Positions 28,920 through 57,848 of a stretch of DNA of 64,000 bases are shown here, in pieces. Both the position numbers and the translations under genes were made by a program. The notes beneath the pieces were generated by a model. That model made no database searches, was not told the DNA's origin, and was given only the letters and a program-made list of their open reading frames with translations. The stretch comes from Candidatus Woesearchaeota archaeon CG10_big_fil_rev_8_21_14_0_10_45_16 (GTDB taxonomy: Archaea > Nanobdellota > Nanobdellia > Woesearchaeales > GW2011-AR9), in contig PCXY01000004.1 in NCBI GenBank assembly GCA_002762785.1, positions 186,001 through 250,000 of the forward strand. The letters are read 5' to 3'. The first letter of the stretch is position 1. Each line of letters begins with the position of its first letter.

Positions 28920-29023
28920 GGGCCGGTAGCTTAGCTTGGTAGAGCGCCTGACTTTTACGTCAGGTTGGTCGTTCAACCGACAATGTTATCAGGCGGTCGA
29001 GGGTTCAAATCCCTTCCGGCCCG
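28920..29023 (+). tRNA. tRNA-Lys (anticodon TTT) with a 30-nt intron
   Basis: Acceptor GGGCCGG pairs with CCGGCCC (29016-29022). Anticodon stem CCTGA (28947-28951) pairs with TCAGG (28989-28993), anticodon TTT at 28954-28956, and T arm GAGGG/CCCTT. The intron 28958-28987 lies at position 37/38. It contains a second TCAGG, which could pair with the anticodon stem but would give an eight-base loop and misplace the variable region, so the intron reading is preferred. Confidence 0.92.
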
Positions 29024-46596: not shown

Positions 46597-46705
46597 TGAA
46601 AAGTCCCTCGTAACATAGCCAAATGTTTTATTTATGGTTTATAAAGGTTGCTGTTTGTTAGTCTGCATTGGAGTCGCTTATTGATACTTTTAATCATCAA
46701 GAAAA

Positions 46706-46801
46706 AGTGCCAGACAGATCATGAGAACAGAAGTTTTACAACTCGAAGTTAACCAGCTGGTTTTTCTAAGCTAAACTTCACGTTTTCTCATCTATCTGGC
46801 T
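46706..46801 (-). ncRNA. Small structured RNA gene related to a tRNA-Gly intron
   Basis: On the minus strand a TATA-like TGCTTAAATAG (about 46820-46832) predicts a start at the base of a long hairpin: GCCAGA/TCTGGC (46795-46800 with 46709-46714), AGAT/ATCT, GAGAA/TTCTC, then GAAGTTT/AAACTTC (46730-46736 with 46773-46779). Inside are a short hairpin (46740-46750) and a 12-bp palindrome AACCAGCTGGTT. The end is followed by ACTTTTTC, a terminator-like T tract. Bases 46750-46776 are identical to a segment of the tRNA-Gly(TCC) intron. There is no ORF. RNA class unknown. Confidence 0.65.
46750..46776. repeat. 27-bp repeat, copy 1 (small RNA gene)
   Basis: Identical to 47780-47806. It contains the palindrome AACCAGCTGGTT followed by TTTCTAAGCTAAAC. 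Confidence 0.95.
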
Positions 46802-46881
46802 TGTTCCTGTGAGGAAGACTACTATTTAAGCATTTCTTACCACCAGAATAGAATGAATGGAGCTTAACAATATTTAAAAAG

Positions 46882-47661
46882 ATGGAATCTAAAAATGGAG
46901 AGATGAGATATCTCTTATTTGGGGCGGCCGGTCTGGTGGGGTTAGTCCTGGGTCCTTTGCAAGATAACCATGAACGACCACTTCATCTTGAGGAAGCCAT
47001 TCCGCTGCAGATTGTCCGGGCTGATTATCGTCACTTTGTTTCGCAAGTTGAGCCGGATCGATCTTTATATCTGGTTAAAGAAGAGCGAGGCAGGTGTTCT
47101 TACATTTCAGAATTTAGGAGGTCTAAAGATGGTTCTCCTAGTCTGGATGAGATCAGTTATGAGCAGCTTCATTCCTGGAGATGTGACGGTAATGGAAATA
47201 AGGTCCGTCTACAAGCTTGGCAGCGAGATAGTGGTGGACTGCCGGACTTGTTCCTTATCCGACGGGAGACCGATCATGGATCGTATCACGAGCGTAATGT
47301 CATGCTCATCTTGAGATATTCCGACCGTTTTGTCAAAGTCAAGACTCTTAATCCGGAGAAAGAGTATAACGGTCAGGCTTTGGCAGATGTTAGTCGGACA
47401 ACCAGGATCCGTCATCATCGTGCTGAGTATGAAGATTTTTCTGATCTGGAGTTTGAAGATGTAGAAGTTTCTGGATGGCGGTCCTACCGTCCGGAGGTGT
47501 TTGGCCGATTTTTCATCTCTTTAGGTTTGGCGATGGAGGCGCAGGATGCGTTTGCTTCTGGCAGAAGGTTACCTTCTTATGAAGCGTTTAGGACCATTGA
47601 AGCAGCTGTCCTGCCAGCGATGGCCAAGATGCAGGATAGTGTTATCGCTGGTTTGGAATGA
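46882..47661 (+). CDS. Hypothetical exported or membrane-anchored protein
   Basis: The 259-residue protein has an N-terminal hydrophobic segment (YLLFGAAGLVGLVLG, about 10-24) and a polar domain rich in Arg, His and Asp. No family is recognised. It lies between the small RNA gene and the intron-containing tRNA-Gly that share a repeat, but on the opposite strand to both, so a functional link is not implied. Confidence 0.65.
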   Translation: MESKNGEMRYLLFGAAGLVGLVLGPLQDNHERPLHLEEAIPLQIVRADYRHFVSQVEPDRSLYLVKEERGRCSYISEFRRSKDGSPSLDEISYEQLHSWRCDGNGNKVRLQAWQRDSGGLPDLFLIRRETDHGSYHERNVMLILRYSDRFVKVKTLNPEKEYNGQALADVSRTTRIRHHRAEYEDFSDLEFEDVEVSGWRSYRPEVFGRFFISLGLAMEAQDAFASGRRLPSYEAFRTIEAAVLPAMAKMQDSVIAGLE

Positions 47662-47669
47662 GAAAGAAA

Positions 47670-47718
47670 TGCACCGGCCGGCAGACAAAAAGACTCTGCT
47701 TTTTGAGCCAGCCGTGCA
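47670..47718. terminator. Long interrupted hairpin between convergent CDS and tRNA-Gly
   Basis: TGCAC (47670-47674) pairs with GTGCA (47714-47718), GGC/GCC twice, then CAAAAAG (47686-47692) with CTTTTTG (47699-47705), with small bulges. Thirteen bases at its left edge (47669-47681) repeat the tRNA-Gly 3' end at 47732-47744. Position and T tract suit termination from both sides. Confidence 0.55.
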
Positions 47719-47732
47719 CTTACTGACGTTCA

Positions 47733-47890
47733 TGCACCGGCCGGGACTTTCGAGACAGGTTTTACGGTCCTCAGGGGACTAACCAGCTGGTTTTTCTAAG
47801 CTAAACCTTTTCTTTCGAACCCGGACAACCGGCTCTCATCTTCCTTGCGGAAATGGAAGGCCGGGATACTAGCCGTTATACTACCGGTGC
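47733..47890 (-). tRNA. tRNA-Gly (anticodon TCC) with two introns
   Basis: Acceptor GCACCGG (47890-47884) pairs with CCGGTGC (47740-47734). Anticodon stem CCGGC (47864-47860) pairs with GCCGG (47833-47829); anticodon TCC is 47857-47855. Intron 1, 47853-47835 (19 nt), is at 37/38. T stem CCGGG (47824-47820) pairs with CCCGG (47745-47741), but the loop holds an extra 67 nt (about 47813-47747): intron 2, at about 59/60. Intron 2 contains the 27-bp repeat and a fold like that of the small RNA at 46706-46801. CCA is not encoded. Mature length about 72. Confidence 0.92.
47780..47806. repeat. 27-bp repeat, copy 2 (tRNA-Gly intron)
   Basis: Identical to 46750-46776 and in the same orientation. Flanking sequence differs but keeps pairing: AGGTTT/AAACCT (47757-47762 with 47803-47808) and GGTCC/GGACT (47766-47770 with 47776-47780). 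Confidence 0.95.
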
Positions 47891-57569: not shown

Positions 57570-57848
57570 GATTAGGGGCACGCCCGCAGTCGAATCGACT
57601 AAGCCCCAACAGTTGAACCCTTCTAGCTTCTCGAACCTGCAACCCTCTGAACACCAACTGACCATGCTTAGTGCTGCTCCCGTCAGGGTCTGACACGGTT
57701 CGCATGGCAGCGGTCCCAAAGGACAGGCTGTCAGCAAAGACAAGAAGGACCATTGAAACAAAGGCAACCCTTCCTTGGGCTTCGGCTCCGTGTAAAGTCC
57801 GTTCACGGTTACAGCGCAGGACTAGCGCGCCAGCCTAGCTCTCCCTCA
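57570..57848 (-). ncRNA. Signal recognition particle RNA (7S)
   Basis: On the minus strand the conserved SRP54-binding helix 8 is clear at about 57671-57698 (GTGTCAGAC ... GACGGGAGCAGCAC). The 5' domain shows CTGTAACCG and CCGAAGCCC, typical of archaeal 7S RNA. A TATA-like CTTTTAAAAACAG (about 57871-57879) lies 25-30 bases upstream, inside the response-regulator gene. Ends are approximate; a T-rich stretch follows near 57560. Short open frames across this region are not genes. Its receptor FtsY is at 14146. Confidence 0.88.

Follow-up and report, generated by a model that had tools for sequence, protein, structure and literature searches.

A bulge-helix-bulge intron-borne RNA family of the Woesearchaeales with a predicted intermolecular pairing code

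A small noncoding RNA of the Woesearchaeales, present twice in the 64,000-nucleotide stretch of DNA analysed here (the window), represents a previously undescribed RNA family. The explanation that we favour as a whole, and consider probable, is that this RNA is borne by a bulge-helix-bulge (BHB) intron, is excised from its host transcripts and is dimeric. The RNA family, its dimer code and its minimal splice-host genes had no match in Rfam or in the open-licence literature searched; the processing route is already known.

Two copies in the window and their homologues

Based on the window alone, the original prediction was of a structured RNA that is present both as its own gene and inside a tRNA intron, in two minus-strand copies sharing an identical core. 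Both forms were found, one at 46706-46801 and the other at 47747-47813 (67 nt) within the tRNA-Gly(UCC) gene at 47733-47890 on the minus strand. This tRNA gene, recognised from its sequence (acceptor GCACCGG/CCGGTGC-A) and from relatives without the intron, contains two introns: the T-loop copy of the RNA is the second, and the other, supported by sequence and relatives, occupies 19 nt of the anticodon loop (47835-47853, minus strand). The 26-base core, TTTAGCTTAGAAAAACCAGCTGGTTA, is exact in both copies; it occurs twice in the window, twice in the entire 1.18-Mb genome and not at all in shuffled sequence. The GTA linker and the palindrome AACCAGCTGGTT were as originally described. With respect to folding energy, the entire stand-alone hairpin was far better than shuffles (z = -5.0) and the T-loop intron alone was no better than shuffles; folding energy alone is thus weak evidence, and comparison between genomes decides. 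Directly downstream of tRNA-Gly(UCC), on the minus strand at 47665-47717, a hairpin (GTGCACGGCTGGC...GCCGGCCGGTGCA) repeats the acceptor end of the tRNA and looks like a tRNA remnant or a duplicated 3' part. Rfam searches at gathering and permissive thresholds returned tRNA and SRP RNA only, besides chance matches; the window also holds an intron-containing tRNA on the plus strand at 28920-29023, which Rfam found and ARAGORN missed, and an archaeal SRP RNA on the minus strand at 57575-57845.

If the prediction was right, further homologues with matching stems should exist, and covariance-model searches recovered 49 copies with such stems. In a pattern scan allowing up to 3 mismatches, the core was present in 13 of 60 relatives and absent from the reversed control, and the matching records in named collections were Woesearchaeota or Nanoarchaeota MAGs. 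Introns were searched for by covariance model and by pattern, the model of the first of three search rounds (R1-R3) being built from 16 copies. R1 identified copies in 32 of the 49 genomes of the window's family and R2 added three (35/49); among the family's high-quality genomes (completeness at least 90%, contamination at most 5%), 22 of 25 carry the RNA. Outside this family, copies were found in four other families, with one genome each (G146, G049, G044, and G043). By our own tally there are 49 copies in 39 Woesearchaeales genomes, with 1-3 per genome. The out-of-family members in G044 and G043 as well as L158 and L159 are weak, scoring 26-38 bits each; we accepted them because each lies in a T-loop or hairpin BHB, a feature absent from the model. 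Ten further weak matches were judged to be due to chance (L109, L146, L147, L151-L154, L156, L168, and L169), as was a match in a viral contig (L110) that sits in a phage portal-like coding region. The tally includes a tRNA-Gly T-loop copy in G033 (L078:5300-5480, G033:C107) in which a hairpin of about 60 nt with its own closing stem (GUCAAAAA/UUUUUGAC) is inserted between GAAA and AUCC; apart from this insert the RNA is complete, and 1.6 kb downstream there is a further, normal copy.

Helices within the RNA and complementarity between copies

Comparison of the homologues establishes two helices, both on the minus strand. P1 spans 47757-47808 in the intron copy (AGGUU 47804-47808/AACCU 47757-47761) and 46730-46779 in the dedicated-gene copy (GAAGUU 46774-46779/AACUUC 46730-46735) and encloses P3 and P2; P2 consists of GUCC 47776-47779/GGAC 47767-47770 and AACU 46747-46750/AGUU 46740-46743, respectively. 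For P1 and P2 together in 39 copies, 95.2% of pair cells were standard compared with 82.6% in shuffles, there were 75 both-side changes compared with 17.5 in shuffles, and the covariation score was 0.422 compared with 0.160 for shuffles and at most 0.190 when the pairing was slid; this covariation includes G-U pairs. Thus, the pairings originally proposed covary strongly and support a structured RNA under selection; the exception is the innermost T-A pair of P1, which is not conserved. P3 (A-N-CC/GG-U-U) has a U-U mismatch in most homologues (AAUCC/GGUU) and its other pairs hardly vary; because its pairs besides the central NN are nearly invariant, P3 may be a hairpin or an intermolecular duplex. 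At the junction lie two conserved A-rich strands, UUAGAAAA and GUAAAAC. The D-arm-like look of AGCUUAG...GGUUA is superficial, the complementary D-stem strand being absent.

The palindrome had been suggested to let two RNAs pair, and it gave the strongest covariation signal in the molecule. Columns 26 and 27, which are adjacent at the centre of CCANNUGG, are the top covarying pair of the 39-copy alignment, with the states GC (20), AU (11), UA (5), CG (2), and UG (1). Adjacent bases cannot pair inside one molecule; with a second molecule, all 39 copies form standard pairs, compared with 52% in shuffles, and none of 20000 shuffles reached as high a value. Over A7 the states were GC 20, AU 12, UA 6, CG 3, GU 1, and UG 1, and the ten unpairable states were not observed. 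Because the covariance model left columns 26-27 unpaired, the alignment was not biased toward this result. As a rough guard against shared ancestry, five non-GC states drawn randomly from 15 would all be pairable with a probability of 1/3003. A second self-complementary patch, S1 (columns 11-14), was standard in 39 of 39 copies (AGCU, GGCU, CGCG, and ACGU). In the window, S1 (AGCU) lies at 47799-47802 in the intron copy and at 46769-46772 in the dedicated-gene copy, and the palindromic predicted dimer site CCAGCUGG lies at 47783-47790 and 46753-46760, respectively, all on the minus strand. Copies found later obeyed the same rule: L143 has ACGU at S1 and UA at NN, L144 and L150 have GCGC and AU, L145 has GCGC and CG, and L165 has ACGU together with the loop CCGUACGG. 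L160 is an exception: its S1 (CUUG) lacks self-complementarity, and no copy that could serve as its partner turned up.

The genome G049 departs from self-complementarity: the loop of L159, CUGACCAG, is not self-complementary and is the exact reverse complement of CUGGUCAG, the loop that the paralogues L155 and L158 carry. Likewise, the S1 patches of L159 (AUGU) and L155 (ACAU) are reverse complements of each other. The predicted P3 heteroduplex has an energy of -17.4 kcal/mol compared with -11.2 and -8.6 kcal/mol for the homoduplexes. In whole-molecule co-folding, the L155:L159 gain of -5.4 is weaker than for homodimers because the L159 monomer can adopt another, strong fold. When NN was replaced with unpairable dinucleotides, homodimer prediction gave a weaker complex for 44 of 44 copies, the mean going from -12.2 to -6.6 kcal/mol. 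We conclude that comparison of the copies establishes a complementarity code and that, very probably, two molecules of the RNA act together as a pair. Other pairing schemes were rejected: an intramolecular pseudoknot between S1 (AGCU) and the loop (AGCU), because S1 stays AGCU when the loop is AAUU, UAUA-centred, or of the CACG type; pairing of NN with another variable column, because columns 26 and 27 covary with no further column; and, as a general rule, a heterodimer of the two copies of one genome, which holds in G049 but not in G013, where one copy carries an AU loop and another a GC loop.

Host genes and the splice signal

The copies reside in three kinds of host. Dedicated genes (20 copies) have an outer stem CCAG...CUGG and, upstream, a GTRGTAAGAAA box beside a TATA-like box; T-loop introns (14 copies) occur in tRNA-Gly(UCC), tRNA-Gly(GCC), tRNA-Lys(CUU), and others; and about 15 copies are in short hairpins without a tRNA body, of which the one in G018, with 12 bp and a T-loop, resembles an acceptor-T-arm minihelix. 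About 35 copies are, thus, in minimal hairpin genes, often directly downstream of tRNA-Gly(UCC). Another set of T-loop introns, unrelated to this RNA, was observed in tRNA-Gly (L117, L126, L129, and L135 in G007, G005, G065, and G067); these introns (CAGATCTCCCAGATCTGGTAGGGGG...CCCGCTCATAAGA; CAGATGTCACGCCATCTG...GCTCA) look conserved between genomes, have no Rfam match and are possibly another intron-borne RNA family.

The stand-alone copy in the window had been described with a promoter-like box, a long closing stem and a T tract. It does have its own promoter-bearing gene, with an GTGGTAAGAAA box and a TTAAATA TATA-like box at 46823-46843 (minus strand), whose spacing is conserved in 14 related genes, and a T tract, probably a terminator, at 46702-46706 (minus strand) past the outer helix. 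However, it is more than a free RNA gene: it represents another type of splice host, a minimal BHB hairpin, and its long stem is not a plain terminal stem, as it carries a BHB like that of the tRNA copy. This minimal splice-host gene (46709-46800, minus strand) has a 10-bp outer helix (46791-46800/46709-46718), a central helix UGAG 46787-46790/CUCA 46722-46725, and bulges at 46719-46721 (3') and 46785-46786 (5'). Applying the BHB rule, the excised RNA would be 65 nt (46720-46784) and the joined exons would be a 10-bp hairpin with a 7-nt loop. In the tRNA copy, the central helix is formed by UUCG 47816-47819 (5' strand) and CGAA 47749-47752, the 3' bulge is 47746-47748 and, with the intron boundaries set by the same rule, the predicted canonical cut would leave the mature T-loop UUCGAAU. 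The GTRGTAAGAAA box lies 77-93 nt ahead of the core in 14 of the 20 dedicated genes, and elsewhere in the loci there are 16 matches, with the TATA mostly missing behind them; together with the TATA-like box, as at 46823-46843, it may form a promoter peculiar to these dedicated genes.

The flanks of all three host kinds contain an outer helix, a 3-nt 3' bulge, and a 4-bp central helix. This geometry, with exactly 3 nt in the 3' bulge, was present in 70% of 47 copies compared with 19% when flanks were swapped between copies, and with an outer helix of 7 bp or more in 40% compared with 2%. Bulge lengths of 1, 2, 4, 5, and 6 had no comparable excess; among non-zero lengths, 3 alone was clearly enriched, the enrichment of a zero-length bulge being trivial in that every long outer helix without a break counts as one. 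Covariation is also seen in the central helices (UUCG/CGAA, UUCA/UGAA, UGCG/CGCA, UGAG/CUCA, UACG/CGUA, UGUA/UACA, and CGUG/CACG). The 5' bulge measures 2 or 3 nt according to the start chosen for the inner helix and so is not canonical in the strict sense; in a few hosts (L105, L108) the BHB is poor. The genome encodes the splicing endonuclease EndA (PF01974, E 6.8e-30) and the ligase RtcB (PF01139, E 1.5e-170). Sequence comparison, thus, places a BHB in nearly all hosts and, because the stand-alone stem carries it as the tRNA T-loop does, nearly all copies should be excised by the tRNA splicing endonuclease.

In 21 of 35 family genomes (own tally), the RNA is either contained in tRNA-Gly(UCC) or follows it on the same strand at a distance of up to about 2.4 kb. 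In several of the linked genomes (G009, G032, G003, G018, G024, and G027), tRNA-Gly(UCC) has no T-loop intron, and the RNA looks to have been transferred from the tRNA to a neighbouring dedicated host. This apparent transfer is our strongest reason to hold that it is the RNA that is retained rather than the intron position. T-loop introns carrying the RNA were found in four families of the order and the promoter-bearing gene in the window's family alone, which makes movement out of a tRNA intron and into a dedicated gene the likelier direction.

Proposed mechanism, alternatives and known systems

From these comparisons we infer excision, circularity, a dimer in the cell, and a function. An RNA of roughly 65 nt would be carried as a BHB intron in a tRNA T-loop or in a dedicated gene, the transcript of which would be a T-arm-like hairpin with the same BHB and nothing more. 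The transcript would fold, EndA would cut at the bulges, the exons would be joined to give a tRNA or a throw-away hairpin, and RtcB would probably close the freed 65-67-nt RNA to a circle. The free RNA would fold as P1 and P2, and two molecules would form a two-fold dimer, pairing over 8-12 bp in the palindromic P3 segment and over 4 bp in S1, with both pairing sites on one two-fold axis and the A-rich strands at the junction. The dimer would be the working form, for which we prefer a scaffold or an RNP core, a ribozyme being the bolder option. A more far-reaching version, which we put forward tentatively and with some doubt, is that circularised introns make up an RNA machine that always consists of two molecules, an RNA-only or RNP quaternary structure that may be catalytic. 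Its code would evolve freely yet stay matched at all times and would be able to diverge into orthogonal or complementary paralogue pairs, and its genes would be a splice site and an intron alone.

That more than one tRNA (Gly-UCC, Gly-GCC, Lys-CUU, and others) hosts the RNA in its T-loop, and that unrelated introns use the same site, would also fit a selfish BHB intron that has no cellular role, moves among T-loop sites, e.g. by reverse splicing and recombination, and is structured for excision and mobility only. We consider this unlikely, because there are only 1-3 copies per genome, 22 of 25 high-quality family genomes keep the RNA, it is kept in a separate gene with a conserved promoter where the tRNA is intronless, and the conservation of its core exceeds that of the host. 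The suggestion of a guide or ligand RNA fared poorly, C/D boxes and an Rfam match both being absent. Functional BHB introns do have an archaeal precedent, and EndA substrates have been described (PMC7714728); nevertheless, a C/D or H/ACA modification guide in a tRNA intron, analogous to that of Haloferax tRNA-Trp, seems very improbable, because RUGAUGA/CUGA boxes are not conserved in the 39-copy alignment A6, no Rfam C/D or H/ACA match was above chance, and a long conserved unpaired guide segment is absent. For H/ACA, general Rfam models and the alignment were used, and the conserved ANA tail was not seen in A6. As for a group I intron, with its conserved catalytic core (P3-P8), the RNA is about 65 nt long and Rfam gave no group I match.

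Could the dimer instead be a new small self-cleaving ribozyme, as proposed for hammerheads with a very short stem III and seen in hatchet crystals? The three-way junction with conserved unpaired strands, the weak P3 that would be completed only through dimerisation, the variable nucleotide between P3 and P2, and the dimerisation of hatchet via a palindromic tetranucleotide (PMC7357161) would be compatible with this. On the other hand, Rfam ribozyme families gave no match, hammerhead and hatchet models had none up to E = 10 in the window stretch or E = 1 in five divergent loci, the junction strand lengths are unlike the hammerhead core, a misfit for which we rejected hammerhead topology, and the BHB already accounts for end formation; we hold this reading to be improbable. 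Of the first 41 copies with a clear core, 40 have CCANNTGG as a palindrome at the DNA level, and we also considered that a dimeric protein recognises this palindrome as DNA, its location in an intron or hairpin being fortuitous. This seems hardly credible: UG (TG in DNA) and GU centres and S1 variants GGCU and AUGU pair as RNA wobbles and break the DNA palindrome, the G049 copy is non-palindromic yet an exact complement of its paralogues, and P1 and P2 covary with G-U pairs. The wobble centres together with the G049 case, therefore, indicate RNA-RNA pairing in an RNA dimer rather than a DNA site.

Functional RNA oligomers are described as rarely observed in nature (PMC7357161). Here, intermolecular self-pairing is read from comparative sequence covariation alone, including in a genome with a code that is complementary between paralogues. 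The dedicated, promoter-bearing gene with a transcript of a minimal T-arm-like splice host plus intron is a kind of gene not described in the open-licence literature searched, and it is retained where the tRNA itself is intronless. The long-standing question of whether excised archaeal tRNA introns have functions of their own becomes directly testable, in a DPANN lineage with small genomes and little known RNA biology.

The dimeric, intron-borne RNA that we favour shares with archaeal tRNA BHB introns, the substrates of EndA, the splice signal (4-bp helix, 3-nt bulge), the T-loop position, here also used by unrelated introns, and the presence of EndA and RtcB; it differs in having its own conserved core and dedicated minimal hairpin genes. 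To our knowledge, ordinary archaeal tRNA introns have no fold conserved across host genes. The Haloferax tRNA-Trp intron is a box C/D guide. Like the RNA described here, for which excision is predicted, it is an excised BHB RNA that may act in its own right; C/D boxes are absent from the RNA described here. The same resemblance applies to the BHB in the 5' UTR of HVO_1309 (PMC7714728). The tRNA splicing machinery is able to mature and circularise non-tRNA RNAs (PMC4731332, PMC7714728), and the circular SRP RNA of Thermoproteus is a functional non-tRNA RNA that is matured via a BHB by this machinery and has its own TATA box (PMC4731332). BHB maturation of a non-tRNA RNA, as predicted here, from a gene with a TATA box is common to both systems; unlike the RNA described here, with its minimal T-arm-like hairpin host, that RNA is a known, permuted SRP RNA without a dimer code. 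Finally, HIV-1 DIS, the hatchet ribozyme, and the guanidine-II riboswitch are palindrome-driven RNA homodimers (PMC7357161) in which a self-complementary loop or tetranucleotide joins identical RNAs, as we predict here. They have no sequence or Rfam relation to the family described here, in which, by contrast, all six standard pair types occur in the covarying complementarity, which in one genome is divided between a complementary pair of paralogues.
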